From assembly GCA_948144175.1 (NCBI GenBank), contig CANXME010002051.1, forward strand, positions 475,001 through 539,000: a stretch of DNA of 64,000 bases. Reading direction: 5' to 3'. Each line of letters starts with the position of its first letter. The stretch's first letter is position 1. The notes under the pieces were generated by a model. That model was not told where the DNA came from, searched no databases, and worked only from the letters and a program-made list of their open reading frames with translations. The stretch is from Closterium sp. NIES-65. Lineage: Eukaryota; Streptophyta; Zygnematophyceae; Desmidiales; Closteriaceae. This document shows, piece after piece, positions 1 to 14,857 of the stretch. The translations under genes were made by a program, and so were the position numbers.

Positions 1-87
1 ACGCCCCCCACGCCCGCCCCCGCCTCCGCGCCCGCTGCTGCCGCTGCGTGCGAGTCGCCGAGGTTGAGAATCTTGAGGCGCTTGTCA
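1..87 (-). CDS. SSRP1: SSRP1 exon 10, start only
   Basis: Acceptor CCCCCAG, then the completed serine and [20 protein letters not shown], matching the conserved SSKGLKIMNL segment and running into an Ala/Gly-rich linker before the acidic region. The exon continues past the left edge, so its end is unknown. Confidence 0.88.
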
Positions 88-3000
88 CTGGGGGGAGGGC
101 ACGGTGCGTGGGTGGTTGGGGTATACGTGAACGCATTGAGGAAGGCCAACATTGAGGGACTGCTTTATAGAAACAATGAGATTCTTTATGATTGCTGGGG
201 GCGAACTGGTGGAATTGTGGAATGGTGGAATGGTGGAATGGTGGATGAGTGAAGTGGGCGTCCTTGCGATGGCGAGAGGCAAGTGAGACGGTGATGGTGC
301 AGACAGATGCATACGAAAAAGAAGCCGTGGCACTGGTGGGTCAACTGGTGGGTCACAGGGCTTTCCCGTGCATGGATGCAGCAACACACGCCTCGGATAT
401 GAGTTGACATATGAGGTGAGGGGGCAGGCACCTGAAGAAGGAGAAGAGGTTGTGGTACTCGTTGCGCTGGATGTTTCGAAATTGGTGCTCCTGCTCGCTG
501 CGCAGGCGGATGACCAAATCGAAGTAGGACGACGAGATGCTGCTCGTGCCCGCGCCGTGCCGCTCAAACTCCACGTACTCCACCTGGGGGGGGTGAGGGG
601 AGGGGTGGGCGGAGGGGAGGTGGGGGGGTGAAAATGGCATGCCGCACAGGAGGCGATGGGAGGGGGGGTTTGAGGCGCCTCACATGCTGCTCGTGCCCGT
701 GCCGTGCCGCTCAAACTCCACGTACTCCACCTGAAGAGAGGATAGGGGCGGGGCATGGCGGGCCGCACGGGCGCACGGTGAGCGGGGCATGAGAGGCACC
801 TGCGGCTTCTGGGGCACGTGGCTGGGGTAGGCGGCATACGTGGCACCCACTGTACAGGCGCCACCTCCAATGGCGGATACCATGAGTGGGGGCACACAGC
901 GCTGTGCGCCACCAGAGATGTTGTTTAGGGGCGGATTTGATCGCAGCAAGCCAAGTGAGGTCGCTCGTGTCTAGATCTAAATGGATCTAACCAGATTCAA
1001 CTAGGAGAGAAGAAAGCGAGTAGAAGAAAGACTTAGTAAGTCAGTCGGTAAGACAAAACATCGCCTGGGATGTGTGTGCGTACGCGTTTTGGCAACAAAG
1101 CCTTCATCAGCGCAGTGCTAGTCTAACTGACTAACTCATCATCCCTTTTCTACTCTGTCTCTCCCTCCCGTCGTCAGCAAACCTCGGGAAATATCCCAAG
1201 TCGCGATTGAACTACTACTTAGAGAATTGCTACGCCAGCTACCTCTACAGCTATCTATCTAGCTGTCCATGCATGCAAAATTCTACCGAGGACGTTGTTC
1301 ACCAACTTTCTGGTGGTACCCATTCTCGTTACAAAATAGAACCACGCTACACCAATTTAGCCCTAACTAACTTGTTACCAATCTTATATGGAAGTCGCCA
1401 AGCTGATACAAACCGAGGCTGATGTAGTCCATTTTGTTTGAGGTTGATTTTGAGAATTCTCAAAAATCCCCCCAGCCCGAGCTCCAAATTTCTTGGACAC
1501 CTTCGTATCTTCAGGGCCAGGGGGGCTTCCCTCGATTTCTTGAACATGTAAGTCTTCAAACGTTGCTGCCGGTTTTCATGTTTAACTGTCTTGAGAGTCT
1601 TCTGAAGGAAATAGTCAGGATAACCTCTCGCTCTTAAGCGTTTGTAGAAGGCCTTCTTCCTGATCAGAAAGGTGTCAAAGGAAGTATTCCGGATGCAGTG
1701 GTGGTTCAGCTCACTGCTGGTGAAACCCGTTCTGCACTCCCTAGAGTGAAAGGAGGAGAACGGGAGATACAAGTATCTATTGAGTGGTTTCTGGAAGGTT
1801 GCCACATCGAATAGACCTTGACGTTTGAACCTGTCTCCTTTATAGAGGGTGAGGTCAAGGAAATTAATGGAAGTCTCACTAATCTCCCAGGTCAGCTTGC
1901 TGGTCGGTCTCAGGTTGTTGAAGGTACTGAGAAACTGCTCAAGTTCCACAAGTCCCTTGTCCCAGAATATCAACAAATCGTCGATATATCTGAGATGAAG
2001 AAGGGGATGGTGTTCAGTTCTCCAAGTGAGCTCTTTGTCAAGCCAGCTCATAAACAGGATGGCAAAACTCGGAGCCACTGGAGTGCTCATGGCTGTCCCC
2101 TGTACCTGTCGGTATACACAATTATCAAACATAACAACAGAATTGGTCATAACCCAAGTCAGAAGCCTAACAATGAGAGGACGAAGGGGATGTTTCTCCT
2201 TCAAAAGTATCCTATCCACTGCTTCCATCCCATCAAAAATCGGAATAGATGGATACAGACTTTTCACATCATATGTGCAGAGAAGAACTCTCTCCGGAAA
2301 TGTCATCTCTTCCAAAGAAAGGACCAAAGAAAGGCTGTCTCTGAGATAAGTCTTCTTTTTTGAAAGAAGTGGCCGAAGCTGTGAGTCCAACCACTTGGAT
2401 GCCATAGTGGTAACCCATGAGTGTGAGGCAGCAATAGGCCTACCCACTGGTTCCTTGTTATGCATCTTCAAAAGAACATAGAATGATGCAGGCTTCCAAC
2501 ATGAAACTGGAGGCTTCTCAAGAGCATCCCAAGTCTTTTTGTTAAGACAAGGTGAGAACTCAGCTCTGATAGAGGAGAAGCCAGCCAAGATGTGTGAAAC
2601 AGAAACAAATGGGAGTTTCTGATACACATCGTCGTCCTCCAGATGTTGGAGGCAGAGGCGGATGTAGTGATCCCTATCCGTGATGGTCATACCCAAATTT
2701 TTATCTGCGGGTTTCACCACAATGGAAGAGTCTGCAGCAATAGACTTCAAAGCTCGTCTTAACTTGGGAGACAAGTTCGAGTGCCTCTTACTGGGTTGGG
2801 CCTGTAGAAGTTGTTGTTGAAGGATTCCCCTATGCTGCTCCAAAATCGTATCGAGTGTACCATTCCGTTTATCAGTCGGAACATCCCACAGTGAGTTCGG
2901 GATTCGAAACTGAGGCACTGGAGTCGATTCACCAAAGAATTCACGAAGTCGCAGATTTCTGGAAAAGCCATGGAAGTCCCTCAAAGTCTCCAAGGCAGGA

Positions 3001-3534
3001 GTGTACTCACTAGAGGTTGGCGTCGAAATGAGTTTCAAACCAAGACCCAGAACCTTCTCTTCTTCTAAAGAAAGACAACGGCTACTCAGGTTGAAGATGC
3101 TACGGTTGGTGATCCGCCTCATCAGCTGTGACTCTGTCATCTGACTAAAGTAGTAAAGAGCGAGGTCCTGATCGGTTAAGTGCTCTAACCTCTCCCCCAA
3201 GGCGATCCTCTTCCTGGGGCACGCCCTCCTCCCCCCCTGCCGTAGCCTCCGTCTCCTCTACCTCTTCCCCTTCCCCATCCCCATCCCCCCCGTCCCCCCA
3301 TCCCATTTTTTGGCTCCACGGAAGGATTCCTAGAGAACTCGTGCTGCTGTTGTCCCTGTCCCTGCGTAGGCCAAAAGGGCTGATGGGACTGTTGGAAATG
3401 AGCAGGATGGTGGTGGATGTGGTTGTGGGGTTGCCACTGCTGGTTAGAATTGGATGGGTTTGGGTTCCAGTTGCGGTGATGAGGAGGAGCAGAAGTCATA
3501 TGCTGAACATTCTCTGTGTTCCTAGAGGAAGTCC

Positions 3535-3575
<41 letters not shown>

Positions 3576-6500
3576 ACCTGCTGCCCACCCTTCTCCTTTT
3601 TCTTGACAAGATCCTCCAGAGCTTCCAACCTCTTGGTCAAGTCTGATTTCTTGAGCAATTCCGCTACGGTAGGTTCCAACTCCATATTCTCAGCAGCTGC
3701 CTTCGCATTCACCTTCCGTTGTGTCTCTTTCTGAGCCACCTCTTGAGCGCTCATGTACGCCAGGGTGTCTTCCAAGGCAATACCCTTGAGAGTCTTCGGA
3801 AACTGCTGCAGCAATATCTGCTCCCACATCTCAAAGCTGTCTCCAAAGACATTTGAAGGAGCTGTCTCTCGGGTTTTCTGCAAATTCTGTCGAAATTCCT
3901 CCTGAGCATTGCTAATCTGACCCGTCAGCTTCTGAAGCTCCCTGTCATGCAAAGCGATCGAAGTCTCGAAACACCGCTTCTTGTATTCTGCTTCCAGCTG
4001 CTTAAACTCTTCATCCCCCTTCAGCTTAATCTCCGCGTCACTACTCTTGAAGGTCATTGGCTCAGACTTGAAGCTCCTCGGTAACCTCAACTCAGAGAAT
4101 AACGAACATAGGCGTTCTACCTTCGTTGTCAGCTTCAATTCCTTGATGAGTGCTTCGCGGTACAGCTTACTGTAGCCCTGAAGTTGCTGAAGGAAAATGT
4201 CTGGTATCTTATCTTCTTCCATGATCAAGTGTGAAGATCCGGAAGAGGATGACCCCGGCTGTCGCTGTTCATTCAGCAACATATTCACGGTTGCTCCCAG
4301 GATTTCCTGCTGCTGCTTAAGCAGTTGCTGCTGGTTAAACACTTGCTGCTGCAAGTCGGTCCCTCCTACAGCCTGTTCCGCAGCTCGTCCCTGCGCTCCA
4401 GCCGCGTTAATAGCAGCTACGTGTGCTGCCGCATCCGCCGCCGCCTGCACAGCAGCCGCTTGCGCAACTCGTTCAGCTTCCATCTACGCGTCTAAGGCTG
4501 CTTCCTCTGCTTGGAGGGCAAGCTCAGTAGAAGGTGAAAACGCAATTTCTTCTTTAGAAACCGGAATCACTTCAACACCAGCTGTAGGTGCTTCCGTAGT
4601 AACTGGTACCAGATCAGAAGAAAGTAGCATTTTGGGTAAACTATGCTGTCTCAGGATCAAATCGTTATTGAAATCTCGAATTGCTGGTGGTAGAAGAAGC
4701 GAAGAGCTTGCTGTAACAAAACCTGGAAGTTGCTGTCCAAGAAGATTTATCTTCTTCGCAGCGTGTACAGGCAGAGTAGATCGTCGAAGAAGAGTGTCTT
4801 CTGGCGATCGCTCCGCGGCAGTACGTTTGACTCCTTGCTCTTCAGTCATGAAACGAAATACCTAACTAATATGCGAAACACACAAGTATCTATCAGAAGT
4901 TCGAATTTCGTACCAGAGACAAACTCGGGCTCGGCGAATCCCGAAACGCAGGCAAAATCGCCACCAGAGATGTTGTTTAAGGGCGGATCTGATCGCAGCA
5001 AGCCAAGTGAGGTCGCTCGTGTCTAGATCTAAATGGATCTAACCAGATTCAACTTGGAGAGAAGAAAGCGAGTAGAAGAAAGACTTAGTAAGTCAGTCGG
5101 TAAGACAAAACATCGCCTGGGATGTGTGTGCGTACGCGTTTTGGCAACAAAGCCTTCATCAGCGCAGTGCTAGTCTAACTGACTAACTCATCATCCCTTT
5201 TCTACTCTGTCTCTCCCTCCCGTCATCAGCGAACCTTGGGAAATATCCCAAGTCGCGATTGAACTACTACTTAGAGAATTGCTACGCCAGCTACCTCTAC
5301 AGCTATCTATCTAGCTGTCCATGCATGCAAAATTCTACCGAGGACGTTGTTCACCAACTTTCTGGTGGTACCCATTCTCGTTACAAAATAGAACCACGCT
5401 ACACCGATTTAGCCCTAACTAACTTGTTACCAATCTTATATGGAAGTCGCCAATCTGATACAAACCGAGGCTGATGTAGTCCATTTTGTTTGAGGTTGAT
5501 TTTGAGAATTCTCAAAATCAGCCGCAACCCAGCAGCGAGTATGAAGATTTGTTTTGAGATGTCTCAAAATAAATCTTCATACACGTGGCAACCCAGTAGC
5601 GAGCAGCGCAAAGGCCCACATCTTCCACCAAACCTGAACCTCTGACTCATGTCCATCCAAAACCCTCATCCCATCTTCCCCCGTCTACATCTCCACTCCT
5701 CGCCCTCCTTCCCCACCTCTCCCTCGTCCCTTCCGTCCTCCCCCTCCCCTCTCCCCCTTGTGCGCGCACCTCATCGTGCAGCACGAGCGTGGGCGGCTTG
5801 GGGAGGAAGAAGAAGCTCTTTTCGAGCGGGTAGAGGTACCCCTCCTCCGCCTTGAGCGACGTGCGCACCGCGTACCCGTCGCTGTTGCTGCGGAACGACC
5901 CCGGCCGCGTCACCTTGGCGCCCGACAGCCCCCGCAGGATCTGAGCAAACACCTCGTGCACCAGGCCCTGCTTGGGGGTAGGGGGGAGGCACGGGGCACG
6001 GTGGGGCACGGTGGGGCATGGTGGGACATGGTGGGACATGGGGGCCGCATGGGTAACCTTGGCGCCCATGGCCCGACAGCCCCCTGGAGATGTGAGCGAA
6101 CACCTCGTGCACCAGGCCCTGTGTGTATGTGCACCAGGCCCTGTGTGTATGTGCACCAGGCCCTGTGTGTATGTGCACCAGGCCCTGTGTGTATGTGCAC
6201 CAGGCCCTGTGTGTATGTGCACCAGGCCCTGTGTGTATGTGCACCAGGCCCTGTGTGTATGTGCACCAGGCCCTGTGTGTATGTGCACCAGGCCCTGTGT
6301 GTATGTGCACCAGGCCCTGTGTGTATGTGCACCAGGCCCTGTGTGTATGTGCACCAGGCCCTGTGTGTATGTGCACCAGGCCCTGTGTGTATGTGCACCA
6401 GGCCCTGTGTGTATGTGCACCAGGCCCTGTGTGTATGTGCACCAGGCCCTGTGTGTATGTGCACCAGGCCCTGTGTGTATGTGCACCAGGCCCTGTGTGT

Positions 6501-9500
6501 ATGTGCACCAGGCCCTGTGTGTATGTGCACCAGGCCCTGTGTGTATGTGCACCAGGCCCTGTGTGTATGTGCACCAGGCCCTGTGTGTATGTGCACCAGG
6601 CCCTGTGTGTATGTGCACCAGGCCCTGTGTGTATGTGCACCAGGCCCTGTGTGTATGTGCACCAGGCCCTGTGTGTATGTGCACCAGGCCCTGTGTGTAT
6701 GTGCACCAGGCCCTGTGTGTATGTGGGGGAAAGGGACGTGGGGGGCACGAGTGGGGGCACGGTGGGGGAAAGCGGGGCACAGTGGGGGCAAGGGGGGGCA
6801 TGATGGGACATGGTGGGGCATGGTGGGGAATGGTGGGGAATGGTGGGGCATGGTGGGGCATGGTGGGGCACGCTGTGGGTGGTGTAAATAGCTGTGGAAG
6901 CATTGGCTCATACCGTTGGCAGACCACGTGCGGGCAAAAAGCAGCCTTGGCATGCTCGTCTGACCTTGGCATGCTCGTCTGACCTTGGCATGCTCGTCTG
7001 ACCTTGGCATGCTCGTCTGACCTTGTCATGCTCGTCTGACCTTGGCATGCTCGTCTGACCTTGTACACGGGCTGCAGGCGGTCCTCACCTTGTACACGGG
7101 CTGCAGGCGGTCCTTGTACTTGGTGGTGAGCAACTCGTCGCTCAGTGACAGCCCGCCCTCAAACGTCTCCTCGTTCGGGAACTGTCAACATGTGCACACA
7201 CACACAGGCAGGCAGGCAGAAACAGAGGGAACGGCATGGGTGGAGCGTGGAGCACAATGCATGGAGTAGGGAGGCAGCATGGCCCACATGAGGCAGCATG
7301 GCCCACACGAGGCAGCATGGCCCACACGAGGCAGCATGGCCCACACAAGGCACAGAGCAGCAGCAGAGGAGATATGTGCGGCGGAGCATGGGGGCATGGA
7401 GTGGTGGAGGGAGGTGGAAGGTACGAGTGCATGCAGCATGCATCGACCTTGCGCTGCAGGGTGCCAGAGAACGTTGGGAGCAGTGTCGTGAAATGTGGTT
7501 GCAAGGGGTGGGTGGGGCGCACCTGCAGCACGATGTGAGGGTAGAGCGTCTGGCCCTTGCGGATGGGCGTGTCCAGTGTGACCACCACGAACGTGTGCGG
7601 CTGGTTGGCCTGCATGCCGCATGGCACAGCACCCGGCGACACAGAGACACAGAGAGAGGCGATGGAGGTTAAAAGCGGCATGGCATGGTGGTGGGCGAAA
7701 GCCCTCATGACAGCAGCAGTGAGCATTGAGCATCGTATGTGGTAGCGGGTATGGTTCAGCAGGCGGCTCGACCCCGCAAGCACCACGGCTGCAGCATGCA
7801 ATGCTACCCGCCTGCCGTGCCATGGCACCATCTGGGCTGCTGCTGCACTGCAAAGCATTTCTGGCAATGACAGAAGCCCAGCGACACATCTTGGGCAGCA
7901 CGAAGAGGCTCACCTTGGGCAGCACGAAGAGGCTCACCTTGGGCAGCACGAAGAGGCTCACCTTGGGCAGCACGAAGAGGCTCACCTTGGGCAGCACGAA
8001 GAGGCTCACCTTGGGCAGCACGAAGAGGCTCACCTTGGGCAGCACGAAGAGGCGCGCGAGGTTCTTGTACTGGATCTTGAAGTCGACAGCCATGCCCTGC
8101 AGGCGCACGTGGCTGACGTGCAGCTCCACCTTGAAGCGGCCCCTGGGCGTGAGGATGTGCACGCCCTCAAACTCCACCACCGCCTCGTCGCCCGATGGCC
8201 CCACGTCCGCGCGCGCCAGGATCTGCTCCTGGAATATCTGGTGGGGGGCCGGGGCCAGGGGGTGGCACCGGGGATGAAGTGGGTGGGGCGAGGAGCAGGA
8301 GGTGGGTGGCAGGAGGTGGGTGGCAGGAGGTGGCACCGTTCCATAGCAGCACGGGTTTGTGGGGCAGCATGCGGGGCGGGTAGAGTGTGTGTGTGCGTGT
8401 GAGGGACGGCGCGTGCGCAGAGGGGGGGAGGCTTGACGGGCACTGGTGCATGCGTGGCATTGGCGAGCACGGCAGGCAGCATCTCCCGTGAGTGGAGTGG
8501 AGTTTGCTATGACGGAAAGGAATGTGGTGAGGGAGCGATGATGGCAGCATGGTGCATGGCAGGCACGGCGGGCATGAGATGAGAAGGAGCCTCCGCGTTG
8601 ACTCGCCCTCTCATGGCCTCCTGCTTGCTGTGGCCGGCTGCCAGTGCTGGCCTGGCGCAAGGCATTTGTGTGCGCGAGACAGGGGTGTGGGAACGGATGG
8701 GGCTAGCGGGAACGGCGACAGGGAGTGGCAGTGCAGAGGGATAGGGAGTGACATGGTGAGCTTGCCTAGGCGGGAGGCTTGCCTGGGCGGAGGGCTTGCC
8801 TGGGCGGAGGGCTTGCCTGGGCGGAGGGCTTGGGTGTGGGGGCGTGGCTGACCTGTGCGGAGGGCTTGTCGTCGGTGCCAACGAAGGTGGTGTTGGACGT
8901 TGGTACGTGAAAACTCATCTCCACCAACATGTCCTTCTGTTATGCCAAGGGGTGATGCAGTGCCTCATGCACAGGTAGACACACACACACACTCACACAC
9001 TCACTCACACACACACTCACACACACTCACACACACACATACACACACACACACATACACACACTCACACACACACATACACACACATACACACACACAC
9101 ACAGAGGTACACACACACAGAGATACACACACAAAAAGGTACACACACAGAGGCACACAGAGGCACAAACTCAGGCACACACGCAGCCACACATAGAGAG
9201 GCACACACTGAGATGCACACACACATGCGGTTATGTCAGACGAAACAGCACTCTTAAATTGGTTAAAGAGTTGCTGCCAGCCCCTCTCACGTGCTAATCC
9301 CTCTCACGTGCTAATCCCTCTCACGTGCTGATCCCTCTCACGTGCTGATCCCTCTCGCGTGCTAATCCCTCTCACGTGCTAATCCCTCTCACGTGCTAAT
9401 CCCTCTCGCGTGCTAATCCCTCTCACGTGCTAATCCCTCTCTCGTGCTAATCCCTCTCACGTGCTAATCCCTCTCACGTGCTAATCCCTCTCACGTGCTA

Positions 9501-12500
9501 ATCCCTCTCGCGTGCTAATCCCTCTCACGTGCTAATCCCTCTCACGTGCTAATCCCTCTCACGTGCTAATCCCTCTCACGTGCTAATCCCTCTCACGTGC
9601 TAATCCCTCTCACGTGCTAATCCCTCTCACGTGCTAATCCCTCTCACGTGCTAATCCCTCTCGCGTGCTAATCCCTCTCACGTGCTAATCCCTCTCACGT
9701 GCTAATCCCTCTCACGTTCTAATCCCTCTCACGTGCTAATCCCTCTCACGTGCTAATCCCTCTCACGTGCTAATCCCTCTCACGTGCTAATCCCTCTCAC
9801 GTGCTAATCCCTCTCGCGTGCTAATCCCTCTCACGTGCTAATCCCTCTCACGTGCTAATCCCTCTCACGTGCTAATCCCTCTCACGTGCTAATCCCTCTC
9901 ACGTGCTAATCCCTCTCACGTGCTAATCCCTCTCACGTGCTAATCCCTCTCACGTGCTAATCCCTCTCACGTGCTAATCCCTCTCACGTGCTAATCCCTC
10001 TCACGTGCTAATCCCTCTCGCGTGCTAATCCCTCTCACGTGCTAATCCCTCTCACGTGCTAATCCCTCTCGCGTGCTAATCCCTCTCGCGTGCTAATCCC
10101 TCTCACGTGCTAATCCCTCTCACGTGCTAATCCCTCTCACGTGCTAATCCCTCTCACGTGCTAATCCCTCTCACGTGCTAATCCCTCTCACGTGCTAATC
10201 CCTCTCACGTGCTAATCCCTCTCACGTGCTAATCCCTCTCACGTGCTAATCCCTCTCACGTGCTAATCCCTCTCACGTGCTAATCCCTCTCACGTGCTAA
10301 TCCCTCTCACGTGCTAATCCCTCTCGCGTCTAATCCCTCTCGCGTCTAATCCCTCTCACGTGCTAATCCCTCTCACGTGCTAATCCCTCTCACGTGCTAA
10401 TCCCTCTCACGTGCTAATCCCTCTCACGTGCTAATCCCTCTCACGTGCTAATCCCTCTCGCGTGCTAATCCCTCTCACGTGCTAATCCCTCTCACGTGCT
10501 AATCCCTCTCGCGTGCTAATCCCTCTCGCGTGCTAATCCCTCTCACGTGCTAATCCCTCTCACGTGCTAATCCCTCTCACGTGCTAATCCCTCTCGCGTG
10601 CTAATCCCTCTCACGTGCTAATCCCTCTCACGTGCTAATCCCTCTCACGTGCTAATCCCTCTCACGTGCTAATCCCTCTCGCGTGCTAATCCCTCTCGCG
10701 TGCTAATCCCTCTCACGTGCTAATCCCTCTCACGTGCTAATCCCTCTCACGTGCTAATCCCTCTCACGTGCTAATCCCTCTCACGTGCTAATCCCTCTCA
10801 CGTGCTAATCCCTCTCGCGTGCTAATCCCTCTCGCGTGCTAATCCCTCTCACGTGCTAATCCCTCTCACGTGCTAATCCCTCTCACGTGCTAATCCCTCT
10901 CACGTGCTAATCCCTCTCACGTGCTAATCCCTCTCACGTGCTAATCCCTCTCACGTGCTAATCCCTCTCACGTGCTAATCCCTCTCACGTGCTAATCCCT
11001 CTCACGTGCTAATCCCTCTCACGTGCTAATCCCTCTCGCGTGCTAATCCCTCTCGCGTGCTAATCCCTCTCACGTGCTAATCCCTCTCGCGTGCTAATCC
11101 CTCTCGCGTGCTAATCCCTCTCACGTGCTAATCCCTCTCACGTGCTAATCCCTCTCACGTGCTAATCCCTCTCACGTGCTAATCCCTCTCACGTGCTAAT
11201 CCCTCTCACGTGCTAATCCCTCTCACGTGCTAATCCCTCTCACGTGCTAATCCCTCTCACGTGCTAATCCCTCTCGCGTGCTAATCCCTCTCACGTGCTA
11301 ATCCCTCTCACGTGCTAATCCCTCTCACGTGCTAATCCCTCTCACGTGCTGATCCCTCTCACGTGCTAATCCCTCTCGCGTGCTAATCCCTCTCACGTGC
11401 TAATCCCTCTCACGTGCTAATCCCTCTCACGTGCTAATCCCTCTCGCGTGCTAATCCCTCTCACGTGCTAATCCCTCTCACGTGCTAATCCCTCTCACGT
11501 GCTAATCCCTCTCACGTGCTAATCCCTCTCACGTGCTAATCCCTCTCGCGTGCGAATCCCTCTCGCGTGCTAATCCCTCTCACGTGCTAATCCCTCTCAC
11601 GTGCTAATCCCTCTCGCGTGCTAATCCCTCTCACGTGCTAATCCCTCTCACGTGCTAATCCCTCTCACGTGCTAATCCCTCTCACGTGCTAATCCCTCTC
11701 ACGTGCTAATCCCTCTCACGTGCTAATCCCTCTCACGTGCTAATCCCTCTCACGTGCTAATCCCTCTCACGTGCTAATCCCTCTCACGTGCTAATCCCTC
11801 TCACGTGCGAATCCCTCTCACGTGCTAATCCCTCTCGCGTGCTAATCCCTCTCACGTGCTAATCCCTCTCACGTGCTAATCCCTCTCACGTGCTAATCCC
11901 TCTCGCGTGCTAATCCCTCTCACGTGCTAATCCCTCTCACGTGCTAATCCCTCTCACGTGCTAATCCCTCTCACGTGCTAATCCCTCTCGCGTGCTAATC
12001 CCTCTCACGTGCTAATCCCTCTCACGTGCTAATCCCTCTCACGTGCGAATCCCTCTCACGTGCGAATCCCTCTCGCGTGCTAATCCCTCTCACGTGCTAA
12101 TCCCTCTCACGTGCTAATCCCTCTCACGTGCTAATCCCTCTCACGTGCTAATCCCTCTCACGTGCTAATCCCTCTCGCGTGCTAATCCCTCTCGCGTGCT
12201 AATCCCTCTCGCGTGCTAATCCCTCTCGCGTGCTAATCCCTCTCGCGTGCTAATCCCTCTCGCGTGCTAATCCCTCTCGCGTGCTAATCCCTCTCGCGTG
12301 CTAATCCCTCTCGCGTGCTAATCCCTCTCGCGTGCTAATCCCTCTCGCGTGCTAGTCCCTCTCGCGTGCTAGTCCCTCTCGCGTGCTAATCCCTCTCGCG
12401 TGCTAATCCCTCTCGCGTGCTAATCCCTCTCGCGTGCTAATCCCTCTCGCGTGCTAATCCCTCTCGCGTGCTAATCCCTCTCGCGTGCTAATCCCTCTCG

Positions 12501-14857
12501 CGTGCTAATCCCTCTCGCGTGCTAATCCCTCTCACGTGCTAATCCCTCTCGCGTGCTAATCCCTCTCACGTGCTAGTCCCTCTCGCGTGCTAATCCCTCT
12601 CGCGTGCTAATCCCTCTCGCGTGCTAATCCCTCTCGCGTGCTAATCCCTCTCGCGTGCTAATCCCTCTCGCGTGCTAATCCCTCTCACGTGCTAGTCCCT
12701 CTCGCGTGCTAATCCCTCTCGCGTGCTAATCCCTCTCGCGTGCTAATCCCTCTCGCGTGCTAATCCCTCTCGCGTGCTAATCCCTCTCGCGTGCTAATCC
12801 CTCTCGCGTGCTAATCCCTCTCGCGTGCTAATCCCTCTCGCGTGCTAATCCCTCTCACGTGCTAATCCCTCTCACGTGCTAGTCCCTCTCACGTGCTAGT
12901 CCCTCTCACGTGCTAGTCCCTCTCACATGCTAGTCCCTCTCACGTGCTAGTCCCTCTCACGTGCTAGTCCCTCTCACGTGCTAGTCCCTCTCACGTGCTA
13001 GTCCCTCTCGCGTGCTAATCCCTCTCGCGTGCTAATCCCTCTCACGTGCTAGTCCCTCTCGCGTGCTAATCCCTCTCGCGTGCTAATCCCTCTCGCGTGC
13101 TAATCCCTCTCGCGTGCTAATCCCTCTCGCGTGCTAATCCCTCTCGCGTGCTAATCCCTCTCGCGTGCTAATCCCTCTCGCGTGCTAATCCCTCTCGCGT
13201 GCTAATCCCTCTCGCGTGCTAATCCCTCTCACGTGCTAATCCCTCTCACGTGCTAATCCCTCTCACGTGCTAGTCCCTCTCACGTGCTAGTCCCTCTCAC
13301 GTGCTAGTCCCTCTCACGTGCTAGTCCCTCTCACGTGCTAGTCCCTCTCACGTGCTAGTCCCTCTCACGTGCTAGTCCCTCTCACGTGCTAGTCCCTCTC
13401 ACGTGCTAGTCCCTCTCACGTGCTAGTCCCTCTCACGTGCTAGTCCCTCTCACGTGCTAATCCCTCTCACGTGCTAGTCCCTCTCACGTGCTAGTCCCTC
13501 TCACGTGCTAGTCCCTCTCACGTGCTAGTCCCTCTCACGTGCTAGTCCCTCTCACGTACTAGTCCCTCATGCGGCACCAACATGCCACTTGTACTTAAAC
13601 TTATGCAACTTAGCACACACTTGCCACGTCAGCGCACCTCAGCAGCAGTGGCAGTGTCGTCCACGTGGAACTCCAGCAGCACGTCGTTCTTCCCTGACAG
13701 CTGTGTCTGTGACACGTCAGCAATGGAGATCTCGAAGGCCTGCTTGCCACCCACCTGGAATCCCAGCATCGTGCCTGCATGGGTGTGAGTGGGTGTGTGC
13801 ATGCACATGTGCATATCCGTAACGGAGAAGAGAGCCCCCCCTAGGTTCAAACCCCCTCCGTGGGTCGTCACTGCTTCCCTATTATTTACTCCTCTCACTG
13901 GGTAGGGGGATATACGGACATGGATGCATGCGCAGAGCATGGGAAACAGTACAACAGTAGCACATCAAACAGCAAATGACACATGGCACACAGCACATGG
14001 CTCGAGGGCACAAGCAACAAGTTGACATGGTGGCAGCACAGGGTGGAACGAGAGCAGCAGAGGGCGCGGCAGCGGGAACCAAGTGCCTCTCAAGACTATC
14101 TTGCATCGCCTAACCGCACCAGCCTCGCCCACCCGTACACCCACGCCACTCCCACCTTCCCCCTGCTCTCCCACCCTCCGCCCCCTTTCCCCCAACCCCT
14201 TTCCCGCACAGCACCGCGCCCTGCGGTGCACTTCGATGCAGTGCGGTGCGGTGGTGGTGGGTACCTTCGATCTCGGCGTCGCCCCAGTTGCGGCCGCTGG
14301 TGGCGAGCTCGCTCTTGCGCGGCGCGAAGCCAAGCGTGGAGGTGAGGAAGGGCGAGAGCGAGTCCACGTCCGCCTTGGTGAAGCCGTTGAACTTCACCTT
14401 GCCGCCCGCCTTGAGCCGCACGCACAGCTGGTACCCGCGCGGCACGCGCATCCACACCACGCCCGCCATGTCCGTGCGCTGCACGTCCACCTGCTTCCCC
14501 CCGCCCAGCTTCCGCCACGCCAGCCCGCCCGTGTGCACGCGCAGCTGCCCCGGGGTCTGCGCAGGACGAGGGATTCGCGAAGGCATGCGGAATTCGCGAA
14601 GGCACGAGAGATTCGCGAAGGCACAAAAGCTTCGCGAAGGCATGAGTACTTCGCGAACTCACGAGGAATTCGCAGAGGCACAAAAATCTCGCAAAAGGGC
14701 GAGAAGCGAGGAGCAGCTGAGGGAGGGAGACGAGGAAGGCGAGCGTTGGGCTGGAACGGAAAGAATCAGCGCAACGAGCGGGCGGAGGAGGACTTGCCAG
14801 AGCGCCGCGGCCGCCGAGGAGGATGTTGTTGAACTGATGCACCGCCACGTCAGCCAT
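1..14857 (-). CDS. SSRP1: SSRP1, FACT complex subunit (multi-exon, 3' end outside window)
   Basis: SSRP1 is the partner of SPT16 in FACT, the nuclear histone chaperone that loosens and rebuilds nucleosomes during transcription, replication and repair. Ten exons on the minus strand (listed separately) join in frame into about 465 codons that follow plant SSRP1 in order: the N-terminal FNNI..GGRG start, the SGRNWGD and [10 protein letters not shown] segments, [13 protein letters not shown], the middle domain ([51 protein letters not shown]), [39 protein letters not shown] and [16 protein letters not shown]. These correspond to the N-terminal PH-like domain, the structure-specific recognition domain and the Rtt106-like PH domain. 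The acidic stretch and HMG box expected further on lie left of position 1. Every exon is open. Total length is normal for the family as far as it can be seen. The introns are unusual: several begin or end in tandem copies of the adjoining splice junction. The identity is secure; alternative junction use is open. Confidence 0.95.
88..431 (-). other. SSRP1 intron 9
   Basis: 344 bp between exons 9 and 10. It holds a small 10-bp repeat (units of ggaatggtgg, about 207-248) and no other structure or gene that I can recognise. Confidence 0.8.
432..583 (-). CDS. SSRP1: SSRP1 exon 9
   Basis: 152 nt, acceptor CCCCCAG, donor TTCAG followed by GTGCCT. It encodes [35 protein letters not shown] and [11 protein letters not shown]. 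It ends in phase 2, which exon 10 completes as serine. A truncated copy of its first 47 nt lies at 684-730. Confidence 0.94.
684..730 (-). pseudogene. Partial duplicate of SSRP1 exon 9 start
   Basis: 47 nt in intron 8 nearly identical to the first part of exon 9 ([15 protein letters not shown]), with its own CTTCAG acceptor and a GT (GTGAGG) right after the last matching bases. Inclusion would add 47 nt and shift the frame of exon 9, so I read it as a decayed exon copy and not a used exon. Confidence 0.75.
907..1465 (-). repeat. Penelope-like terminal repeat (downstream copy)
   Basis: 559 bp, direct repeat of 4959-5517. In the sense of the element this is the 3' copy; the last 119 bp of the RT frame run into it. 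It ends at an 18-bp perfect palindrome (1448-1465, TTTTGAGAATTCTCAAAA). Confidence 0.88.
1347..3200 (-). CDS. Penelope-like reverse transcriptase (ORF2)
   Basis: 617 residues. The RT core is clear: VVKPADKN near residue 161 (a Penelope and TERT-side hallmark), [11 protein letters not shown] at 310-320 (motif A), [10 protein letters not shown] at 368-377 (motif B) and YIDDL at 405-409 (motif C). The thumb region and a basic tail follow. The protein would copy element RNA at a DNA 3' end. No GIY-YIG nuclease or zinc finger is visible. Its start overlaps the end of ORF1 by 16 nt in another frame, which suggests coupled translation. Its C-terminal 39 residues are encoded inside the terminal repeat. 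Confidence 0.88.
   Translation of the reverse strand: MGERLEHLTDQDLALYYFSQMTESQLMRRITNRSIFNLSSRCLSLEEEKVLGLGLKLISTPTSSEYTPALETLRDFHGFSRNLRLREFFGESTPVPQFRIPNSLWDVPTDKRNGTLDTILEQHRGILQQQLLQAQPSKRHSNLSPKLRRALKSIAADSSIVVKPADKNLGMTITDRDHYIRLCLQHLEDDDVYQKLPFVSVSHILAGFSSIRAEFSPCLNKKTWDALEKPPVSCWKPASFYVLLKMHNKEPVGRPIAASHSWVTTMASKWLDSQLRPLLSKKKTYLRDSLSLVLSLEEMTFPERVLLCTYDVKSLYPSIPIFDGMEAVDRILLKEKHPLRPLIVRLLTWVMTNSVVMFDNCVYRQVQGTAMSTPVAPSFAILFMSWLDKELTWRTEHHPLLHLRYIDDLLIFWDKGLVELEQFLSTFNNLRPTSKLTWEISETSINFLDLTLYKGDRFKRQGLFDVATFQKPLNRYLYLPFSSFHSRECRTGFTSSELNHHCIRNTSFDTFLIRKKAFYKRLRARGYPDYFLQKTLKTVKHENRQQRLKTYMFKKSREAPLALKIRRCPRNLELGLGGFLRILKINLKQNGLHQPRFVSAWRLPYKIGNKLVRAKLV
3185..4483 (-). CDS. Penelope-like ORF1, Gln-rich coiled-coil/RGG protein
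   Basis: 432 residues. The N-terminal third is Ala/Gln-rich and likely helical, the middle is charged with coiled-coil character, then comes a run of about 14 glutamines from a CAG repeat (about 3535-3575). The end is Asn/His/Pro-rich with a Gly-Arg-Trp tail of RGG type, which in other proteins binds RNA. I infer an RNA-binding accessory protein; I recognise no named domain. Confidence 0.6.
4484..4849 (-). CDS. Small frame upstream of Penelope-like ORF1, unknown
   Basis: 121 residues ([20 protein letters not shown] at the start), directly before ORF1 and in the same frame. It has no recognisable domain. It may be the N-terminal part of the same protein or a separate leader product. Confidence 0.45.
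   Translation of the reverse strand: MTEEQGVKRTAAERSPEDTLLRRSTLPVHAAKKINLLGQQLPGFVTASSSLLLPPAIRDFNNDLILRQHSLPKMLLSSDLVPVTTEAPTAGVEVIPVSKEEIAFSPSTELALQAEEAALDA
4959..5517 (-). repeat. Penelope-like terminal repeat (upstream copy)
   Basis: 559 bp, about 98.6 percent identical by eye to 907-1465. In element sense this is the 5' copy and should hold the promoter. It ends at the same 18-bp palindrome (5500-5517). Confidence 0.88.
5524..5603. repeat. 44-bp hairpin between 16-bp direct repeats
   Basis: A near-perfect inverted repeat (5539-5582, arms gtatgaagattt and aaatcttcatac, with an inner ttttgaga/tctcaaaa pair) lies between two copies of gcaacccag(c/t)agcgag (5524-5539 and 5588-5603). The inner part resembles the palindrome that ends the Penelope terminal repeat, so it may be an older end of the same family. 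Confidence 0.7.
5770..5967 (-). CDS. SSRP1: SSRP1 exon 8
   Basis: 198 nt, 66 codons, acceptor CAAGCAG, donor GATGAG followed by GTGCGC. It encodes [20 protein letters not shown], the [14 protein letters not shown] segment and [16 protein letters not shown], part of the Rtt106-like PH domain. Upstream lie a partial decayed copy of its first part (6053-6120) and 28 copies of its acceptor. Confidence 0.95.
5990..6048 (+). repeat. 10-bp G-rich repeat (intron 7)
   Basis: Several imperfect units of the type gcacggtggg / catggtggga just upstream, in gene sense, of exon 8. A related patch lies at 6786-6872 on the other side of the 22-bp array. Confidence 0.7.
6053..6120 (-). pseudogene. Decayed partial duplicate of SSRP1 exon 8 start
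   Basis: On the minus strand this reads GGCCTGGTGCACGAGGTGTT and then a diverged copy of the exon 8 sequence as far as GCCAAGGTTACC. It has a small insertion and several changes compared with 5896-5967. Its acceptor is the last unit of the 22-bp array. It no longer keeps the SSRP1 frame. Confidence 0.8.
6110..6725 (-). repeat. 28 identical 22-bp units, each a copy of the exon 8 acceptor
   Basis: 616 bp = 28 x 22, with no difference that I can see between units. In gene sense each unit holds CACATACACACAG followed by GGCCTGGTG, that is a pyrimidine/CA stretch, an AG and the first nine bases of exon 8. The identity of the units points to very recent expansion. The array is open in all six frames because the unit has no stop; these frames are not genes. 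Confidence 0.95.
6786..6872 (+). repeat. 10-bp G-rich repeat catggtgggg (intron 7)
   Basis: About eight imperfect units, strongly G-rich on the plus strand. It is the same kind of repeat as at 5990-6048. Confidence 0.75.
6945..7058 (-). repeat. Six 19-bp units carrying donor-like sites after exon 7
   Basis: Six units of ccttggcatgctcgtctga (one has a g to t change). In gene sense every unit contains AAG followed by GTCAGA, a good match to a 5' splice site. The array starts where the duplicated exon 7 end stops. Confidence 0.9.
7060..7117 (-). repeat. Two 29-bp copies of the exon 7 3' junction
   Basis: The end of exon 7 (DRLQPVYK) plus GTGAG is repeated once in tandem. The first copy ends at the true donor (after 7089), the second at AAG-GTCAGA (after 7060). 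29 is not a multiple of three, so use of the second donor would shift the frame. Confidence 0.88.
7089..7181 (-). CDS. SSRP1: SSRP1 exon 7 (end taken at the first donor)
   Basis: 93 nt, 31 codons, acceptor TTGACAG. It encodes [18 protein letters not shown] and ends [11 protein letters not shown] at AAG followed by GTGAGG. A 29-bp tandem copy of the junction places a second donor after 7060, which would shift the frame, and six 19-bp units with further AAG-GTCAGA sites follow. The first donor joins in frame to GLVHEVF in exon 8. Confidence 0.92.
7272..7347 (+). repeat. Four 19-bp units in intron 6
   Basis: Units of aggcagcatggcccacacg in the 341-bp intron between exons 6 and 7. I see no similarity to a neighbouring exon junction. 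A short CA run (7195-7206) lies nearby. Confidence 0.85.
7523..7609 (-). CDS. SSRP1: SSRP1 exon 6
   Basis: 87 nt, 29 codons, acceptor CATGCAG, donor CTGCAG followed by GTGCGC. It encodes [20 protein letters not shown] and then TLYPHIVLQ, almost unchanged from land-plant SSRP1. This exon has no copies of its junctions beside it. Confidence 0.95.
7891..8052 (-). repeat. 24-bp tandem array of the exon 5 donor, seven copies of the exon end
   Basis: The sequence coding LFVLPK followed by the donor GTGAGC is present in seven tandem copies (plus-strand starts at 7891, 7915, 7939, 7963, 7987, 8011 and 8035). Six are followed by GTGAGC; the innermost is followed by ATGTGT. The unit is eight codons with no stop, so each donor keeps the frame. 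Confidence 0.95.
8034..8237 (-). CDS. SSRP1: SSRP1 exon 5 (end taken at the first of six donors)
   Basis: 204 nt, 68 codons, phase 0 at both ends. It encodes [39 protein letters not shown] and ends ARLFVLPK at AAG followed by GTGAGC. The same 24-bp junction is repeated downstream, so donors also stand after 8010, 7986, 7962, 7938 and 7914. Each later donor would add one in-frame VSLFVLPK octapeptide. The first donor gives the conserved length (LFLLPK joined to NQPHTF in other plants). Confidence 0.92.
8299..8338 (+). repeat. Short GGTGGGTGGCAGGA repeat (intron 4)
   Basis: Three imperfect units in the 615-bp intron 4. No other feature is visible between here and 8764. Confidence 0.7.
8764..8831 (-). 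repeat. Four 17-bp units copied from the exon 4 end
   Basis: In gene sense the unit is AAGCCCTCCGCCCAGGC. The end of exon 4 is AAGCCCTCCGCACAG followed by GT. Each unit therefore repeats the last 15 exon bases with one change and carries CAG followed by GCAAGC, the form of a GC-type donor. One unit is more diverged. Confidence 0.88.
8853..8936 (-). CDS. SSRP1: SSRP1 exon 4
   Basis: 84 nt, phase 0 at both ends, acceptor ATAACAG, donor CACAG followed by GTCAGC. It encodes [20 protein letters not shown] followed by TDDKPSAQ, matching the conserved EISFHIPNSNTQFVG region. The last 15 nt of the exon are the model for a 17-bp array just downstream (8764-8831). Confidence 0.92.
8974..9230 (+). repeat. 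CA-rich microsatellite (intron 3)
   Basis: Long, interrupted (CA)n with ACTC and AGAG interruptions just upstream, in plus-strand order, of the 17-bp satellite. Confidence 0.9.
9281..13567 (+). repeat. 17-bp satellite array, about 252 units, in SSRP1 intron 3
   Basis: About 4.29 kb of head-to-tail ctcacgtgctaatccct. Almost all variation is at two positions: the A of CACGTG (A or G, giving CGCGTG) and the second A of TAATCCC (A or G). Variants are grouped: mixed with mostly CACGTG to about 12170, nearly all CGCGTG at 12170-12860, then TAGTCCC with CACGTG at 12870-13000 and 13260-13560. Two shortened units lie near 10325-10345. In gene sense each CACGTG unit also contains GTGAGAG and ATTAG. 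It has no spacers and no genes. Confidence 0.97.
13638..13774 (-). CDS. SSRP1: SSRP1 exon 3
   Basis: 137 nt, acceptor CATGCAG, donor GAG followed by GTGCGC. It encodes [17 protein letters not shown], then [13 protein letters not shown] and LEFHVDD, the signature stretch of the recognition domain. With exon 2 it makes 143 full codons. Its donor opens the intron that holds the 4.3 kb satellite. Confidence 0.94.
13775..14264 (-). other. SSRP1 intron 2
   Basis: 490 bp, GT-AG. Apart from C-rich stretches around 14110-14210 I see no repeat, gene or element in it. Confidence 0.75.
14265..14556 (-). CDS. SSRP1: SSRP1 exon 2
   Basis: 292 nt, acceptor TGCGCAG, donor GAAG followed by GTACCC. It encodes [20 protein letters not shown] onward to [12 protein letters not shown], the N-terminal PH-like domain. 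Phase 0 at the start and phase 1 at the end. Confidence 0.93.
14574..14657. promoter_or_regulatory. Five TTCGCGAA palindromes spaced exactly 19 bp in intron 1
   Basis: The 8-bp palindrome TTCGCGAA stands at 14574, 14593, 14612, 14631 and 14650, inside diverged 19-bp units of the 241-bp intron 1, within 300 bp of the start codon. The core is kept while the bases between vary. That could mean a bound site or only a young minisatellite; a regulatory role is an inference. Confidence 0.45.
14798..14857 (-). CDS. SSRP1: SSRP1 exon 1 (start codon)
   Basis: Twenty codons beginning [18 protein letters not shown]. The start is the only ATG that opens the conserved FNNI/GGRG block. The exon ends in phase 0 at CTG followed by GCAAGT, a GC donor. 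The nearest GT donor, four bases further into the intron, would put exon 2 out of frame. Confidence 0.9.

Follow-up and report, generated by a model that had tools for sequence, protein, structure and literature searches.

Introduction

How do copies of exon borders come to lie inside the introns of a gene? The question is raised by the SSRP1 gene of Closterium sp. NIES-65, ten exons of which were placed on the minus strand of a 64-kb stretch of DNA (positions 475001–539000 of contig CANXME010002051.1; the whole stretch is called the window below), in an assembly of 874,075,685 bp and 2400 contigs. The initial annotation of the window described the 3' ends of exons 4, 5 and 7 with their donors, and the 5' ends of exons 8 and 9 with their acceptors, as being repeated within the adjoining introns, and it proposed either a mutational process tied to splice junctions or selection for redundant splice sites. 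In this study, these copies were analyzed together with a second genomic copy of SSRP1 and with chaperonin and proteasome genes of the same genome. It is likely that local tandem duplication is frequent in this genome and that copies crossing a junction persist because splicing tolerates them.

Junction copies in SSRP1

About 40 nt of exon and 6 nt of intron from each junction were aligned with the intron to which the junction belongs, and the best match was scored. The five junctions named in the initial annotation were recovered with high scores (29, 52 and 57 for the donors of exons 4, 5 and 7; 59 and 81 for the acceptors of exons 8 and 9), compared with 12–21 for the remaining 13 of the 18 window junctions. 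The unit lengths that it had given (17, 24, 29, 19 and 22 bp) were also all found. The copies are as follows, in window positions and with a slash at the junction.

8760..8868, minus strand: 17-bp array, the last ~16 nt of exon 4 with CAG/GC
7890..8053, minus strand: 24-bp array, the last 20 nt of exon 5 with GTGA; 6.8 copies, 100% identical
7058..7114, minus strand: 29-bp tandem duplication, the last 26 nt of exon 7 with GTG
6945..7063, minus strand: 19-bp array beginning at the copied exon 7 donor; units CAAG/GTCAGA, the last one broken
6107..6725, minus strand: 22-bp array, 28 identical copies of ATACACACAG/GGCCTGGTGCAC
6071..6121, minus strand: degraded partial copy of the acceptor and the start of exon 8, 88% over 51 nt
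684..733, minus strand: single copy of CAG and the first 47 nt of exon 9, 98%

The end of exon 4 and its donor are copied, as had been claimed, but the units carry CAG/GC and not GT; 16 exonic nucleotides are followed by a 20-nt spacer and then by the intronic units. A 36-bp primary duplication at this exon was considered and rejected, because 372 of 1000 shuffles aligned its tail equally well or better. In the exon 5 array the donor AAG/GTGAGC occurs six times, the first being the real one, and the last place is broken (AAG/AT), so that GT stands in six of seven places; the unit is in frame and encodes VSLFVLPK. The 22-bp unit corresponds to the acceptor and the first 12 nt of exon 8, and its array is continuous with the degraded exon 8 copy, on which it grew. 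The intron-side homology of this degraded copy was reached by none of 500 shuffles, yet the sequence is of low complexity. The exon 9 copy, with no array, lies 147 bp upstream of the real acceptor (733–684) and thus outside the interval 5770–8936 in which all of the copies had been placed. The statement that the arrays touch or nearly touch the exons needs a similar correction, since the 22-bp array ends 139 nt upstream of exon 8 and the intronic units of exon 4 stand 20 nt off.

The initial annotation counted five of eight junction-bearing internal exons as copied. Five copied junctions are indeed present, but counted by junction they amount to 5/18 in the window and 5/26 in the complete gene, which is less striking. 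In the second gene copy described below, the test covered 24 of the 26 junctions, as intron 3 was too long; the eight junctions of introns 10–13 scored 14–24 there, with no high-scoring copy reaching a junction. The two junctions of intron 3, tested in the window only, scored 14 and 21. Introner-type mobile introns are marked by near-identical sequence dispersed at many loci; in a search of the 64-kb window for such matches (E<=0.01), five of the seven listed adjoined their own exon. The other two were weak, minus-strand matches to the interior of exon 8, and the list was incomplete, with the exon 4 and exon 7 copies missing from it.

A second gene copy and the instability of the arrays

A complete SSRP1 gene of 14 exons, encoding 679 amino acids, lies on contig C1072, and the same five junctions are copied in it. 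The two genes are ~99% identical overall, with exons at 98.9–100% and introns at 99.0–100% outside gaps (seven introns aligned; intron 8, aligned separately, 99.3%). Against this background the unit numbers differ between the window and the second copy: six versus five for the 24-bp array, six versus three for the 19-bp array and 28 versus seven for the 22-bp array, with one more unit of the 17-bp array of exon 4 in the second copy. Intron 3 measures 4.7 kb in the window and 11.2 kb in the second copy. Arrays containing no junction also vary by whole units (14 bp in intron 4, 8 bp in intron 9). These whole-unit differences indicate hypermutable minisatellites and not an artefact of one contig, and the SSRP1 arrays thus behave as ordinary minisatellites, or variable-number tandem repeats (VNTRs).

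Arrays without a junction are common too, intron 3 being 97% array and intron 10 containing a 38-bp array. The array of intron 3 occupies window positions 9282–13568 and consists of 252 copies of a 17-bp unit holding CACGTG. Of the 1352 bases in the ten window exons, 62 fall in arrays, and these are the 16, 20 and 26 exonic bases of the three donor arrays. The decoys are a practical trap for annotation: in the second copy, a codon-based gene finder took one of the in-frame decoy donors as the end of exon 5, and the predicted protein thereby gained four VSLFVLPK repeats.

Assemblies do not always give dependable unit counts, and the arrays are long and near-perfect; a misassembly of long-read repeats is nevertheless scarcely credible, since the second contig has identical breakpoints and similar, sequence-diverged copies occur in unrelated genes. 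The initial annotation had itself named evidence of assembly artefacts as a refutation, and the occurrence of the same copies on the second contig speaks against an artefact.

Copies in chaperonin and proteasome genes

Pfam searches of the same genome, with matches taken exon by exon, gave 93 rows for PF00118 and 44 rows for PF00227. Inspection of these rows by eye revealed three chaperonin exons and one proteasome exon with a second, overlapping match alongside the first. Each of the four occurs in two contigs, where its scores are the same or nearly so; two have their first part repeated upstream and two have their last part repeated downstream. Because copies much shorter than 40 amino acids are hardly detectable in such a table, at least four exons are affected. 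The proteasome exon is known from the table only, and as its first match contains a stop, either match could be the exon. The phenomenon is therefore not confined to one odd gene, as the initial annotation implied, with the proteasome case standing at table level.

Four chaperonin loci were read in sequence; we take them to be CCT5-like (L030), CCT8-like (L031), CCT3-like (L032) and CCT2-like (L033). The first three were chosen for showing a copy, whereas the intron of L033 was unchosen. In L030 the acceptor and 219 nt of exon (−40 to +219) are copied 275 bp upstream at 82% identity, and a third, shorter copy is present. In L031 the last 117 nt of the exon, the donor and 27 nt of intron (−117 to +27) are copied 224 bp downstream at 91%; upstream lies a 46-nt piece that comes from close to the exon start. 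In L032 the acceptor and 151 nt of exon are copied 222 bp upstream at 91%, with another copy further up and a 33-nt exon piece downstream. The single 418-bp intron of L033 has both of its ends copied (donor, −64 to +3; acceptor, −37 to +60) and contains no intron-only repeat.

The chaperonin loci therefore carry tandem duplications, 117–275 bp apart, across donors or acceptors. Homology ends at +3 (L033) and +27 (L031) for donors and at −8 (L032), −37 (L033) and −40 (L030) for acceptors, so that intron DNA of 27–40 nt is included at three of the four loci. The copies are directly oriented beside their source, and the longer ones are 77–98% identical to it and truncated at the inner end, as is expected of a block that ends inside an exon. 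The intron DNA, the direct orientation and the many ages of the copies point to tandem duplication of DNA.

Copying from spliced mRNA, one form of the reverse copying that had been suggested initially, was rejected, since the intron DNA just described would be missing from such copies. In SSRP1, CAG stands before both acceptor copies, just as it does before the real exons, whereas the preceding exons end in AAG and GAG; the difference is a single base in each case, a weak point in the same direction.

Do the arrays prefer junctions?

The initial annotation held that chance would not keep picking exon borders. To gauge this, each array of period >=10 was treated as a single unit placed at random in its intron, which was first collapsed to the length that it had before the arrays grew. 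Within the window, four of 13 arrays cross a junction where 1.71 are expected (P 0.07). Over the whole gene, with the coding repeat of exon 12 left out, the count is four of 15 against 2.08 expected (P 0.13); it becomes P 0.34 when only the three arrays overlapping a real exon edge are counted, and P 0.095 and 0.28 after related arrays are merged (donors only, 0.077). SSRP1 was picked as a striking gene, and this selection bears on all of these statistics. As the units are long relative to the collapsed introns, chance is not firmly excluded. Some counts fall below 0.05, as given in the next section, but the four whole-gene counts span P 0.095–0.34, and a junction preference of the SSRP1 arrays is not firmly shown.

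Local duplication weighed against its rivals

Under the explanation that we favour, the genome would have a high local rate of tandem duplication, ranging from 17-bp minisatellite units to blocks of ~117–275 bp, for which replication slippage or repair may be the cause. A block over a donor would copy the exon end and donor into the intron, and a block over an acceptor would copy the acceptor and the exon start. Were splicing to keep to the first donor and the last acceptor, the protein would be unchanged and the duplication would survive, whereas duplications within exons would change the protein and would mostly be purged. The copies would afterwards decay, or grow into arrays by slippage. 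Exon ends copied downstream and exon starts copied upstream would thus follow from the tolerance of junction-crossing blocks, with no targeting needed. The original outer splice sites are probably still in use, as they yield the conserved protein.

Several observations weigh against this explanation. All 12 repeat pairs found in the four chaperonin loci (E<=0.01) contain, by reading, exon-derived sequence and none is intron-only, which leans towards a junction preference, a leaning that is biased by the choice of loci and the shortness of the pieces. Homology stops at +3 in the L033 donor copy and at −8 in the L032 acceptor copy. The exon 9 copy of SSRP1 is 98% identical on its exon side, yet its intron side aligns no better than chance (global score reached by 46 of 500 shuffles, local score by 241 of 500), an outcome not expected of a plain tandem block. 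Among seven in-window variants of the array count, P ranged from 0.019 to 0.23 and was <0.05 in three, and the three donor units all end, on the intron side, <=4 nt from the junction (P ~0.006, post hoc). In exon 12, read in the second copy, a degenerate repeat coding for K and E, with a period of 15 and 75% matches, begins at the acceptor and touches it by about two bases; exons are thus not wholly array-free, and counting this repeat as crossing gives 5/16 and P 0.044. Finally, the use of the outer sites is deduced from protein homology.

Much of this evidence would suit a mutational process aimed at splice junctions, whether by breakage linked to transcription or the spliceosome or by local copying of unspliced RNA into DNA. 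Junction copies were present in all four chaperonin loci read (three of them preselected for a copy), the sole unchosen intron is duplicated at both ends without an intron-only repeat, some SSRP1 counts reach P <0.05 and the ends of the SSRP1 donor units cluster near the junction, the last of these being post hoc. However, the SSRP1 excess is not firm, the recognisable intron parts at other loci extend for 27, 37 and 40 nt, and copies that bear exon sequence are the easier to detect, their exon side remaining conserved. Breakpoints exactly at junctions, considered separately, are suggestive for the SSRP1 donors and mixed in the other loci. We regard such a targeted process as possible but unlikely. 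Somewhat less probable is the broader proposition that exon borders are duplication hotspots in this lineage through transcription- or splicing-linked copying; if it held, many exons would be surrounded by decaying copies of their borders, a lasting reservoir from which new introns, shifted junctions and alternative exons could arise.

Selection for the copies as redundant or decoy splice sites, or for the tuning of isoforms, in which the exon 5 unit would insert VSLFVLPK repeats, was the other proposal of the initial annotation. In exon 5 the decoy donors match the real donor exactly and are in frame, and the gene finder itself closed exon 5 at one of them. Against this, the other array units (17, 29, 19 and 22 bp) are not multiples of three, the exon 4 copies bear GC and last units are broken, unit numbers vary between near-identical gene copies, and the longer copies are truncated and decayed. 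We consider this proposal very improbable; intron DNA in the copies together with their extensive decay favours neither it nor copying from spliced mRNA. Frequent local tandem duplication, tolerated by splicing, is thus retained as the likely explanation.

The SSRP1 gene model and its surroundings

The window protein has four SSRP1 Pfam domains, and its best solved relative is FACT SSRP1 (3.4e-77); an HMG box was matched in the second-copy protein with an HMG probe. The gene is, we presume, plant-like in look. Its introns are GT-AG except for intron 1, which is GC-AG (CTG/GCAAGT, window 14798), and are mostly of phase 0. The exons in the window are as follows.

14798..14857, minus strand: exon 1, followed by the GC-AG intron
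14265..14556, minus strand: exon 2
13638..13774, minus strand: exon 3
8853..8936, minus strand: exon 4
8034..8237, minus strand: exon 5
7523..7609, minus strand: exon 6, neither end copied (junction-versus-intron alignment)
7089..7181, minus strand: exon 7
5770..5967, minus strand: exon 8
432..583, minus strand: exon 9
1..87, minus strand: start of exon 10, which runs off the window into a gap and is complete in the second copy

A run of N directly below the window start interrupts the gene within exon 10. Intron 8 contains, at window positions 906–5524, a reverse-transcriptase element of ~4.6 kb on the SSRP1 strand that has terminal direct repeats of ~559 bp (98.6% identity) and a weak RVT_1 match, and which we take to be Penelope-like. 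The element is present in the second copy too, since intron 8 can be aligned there from end to end (99.3%).

SSRP1 is the sole host gene recognised in the window. Of the 63 window open reading frames of >=180 amino acids, 29 were passed through Pfam and gave retroelement parts or no family, and a codon-based gene finder saw no host gene between 15 and 64 kb of the window. The same type of finder gave no host gene in two further stretches (L007 and L029), and the 240 kb around the second SSRP1 (C1072:428001-668000) otherwise contained retroelements or low-complexity frames and no other host gene by a codon-model finder. No relatives of SSRP1 were confirmed in viral and genome contig collections, nor any relatives of one retroelement reading frame in viral contigs.

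Comparison with known systems

The origin of introns is an old open question, and a genome with frequent junction-spanning duplications at many stages of decay would allow this process to be followed on a large scale; one could observe in it which copies undergo splicing, which turn into exons and how often junctions move. Such a genome also carries a warning, as automatic gene models may choose decoy splice sites. No reports of such copies in Closterium or other streptophyte algae were found among literature titles and the openings of abstracts, which does not prove their absence; in one paper (PMC11096116) the phrase 'exon duplication' belongs to a reference title on MADS genes.

According to a 2012 review, tandem duplication is the sole proposed mechanism of intron gain that has been shown in vivo (PMC3443670), and in potato RdRp a tandem duplication over an intron–exon boundary gave a new intron (PMC4974935; reviewed in PMC3443670). 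The copies described here likewise cross intron–exon boundaries but, unlike the potato case, appear inside existing introns. They resemble intronic VNTRs in their head-to-tail units of 10–57 bp and whole-unit length changes, and differ from ordinary VNTRs in having a splice junction, together with exon sequence, within the unit.

The closest parallel is provided by the 'mirages' of amphioxus. These are minisatellite-like tandem duplications over exon–intron boundaries of Adh3 and globin genes, on both sides and with unstable unit number (PMC3087553); their units range from 10–72 bp to ~160 bp, many with AG/GT signals (PMC3087553; PMC3902484), and they also occur in troponin C and PGBD5 (PMC3902484). 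The SSRP1 units similarly span exon–intron boundaries at both donors and acceptors, are unstable in number and keep AG/GT signals in many units, not all, as the exon 4 and exon 5 arrays illustrate. In the amphioxus globins regular splicing was apparently unaffected, as checked by reverse-transcription PCR (PMC3087553), whereas the use of the outer sites here is inferred from protein homology. Unlike in amphioxus, five junctions of one gene and several chaperonin genes are involved, second-level arrays have grown on first copies, and the host is a distant lineage, an alga with a plant-like SSRP1 in an 874-Mb genome. The kind of structure is therefore already known from amphioxus; the novelty lies in the lineage and, to judge from five genes, in the density.

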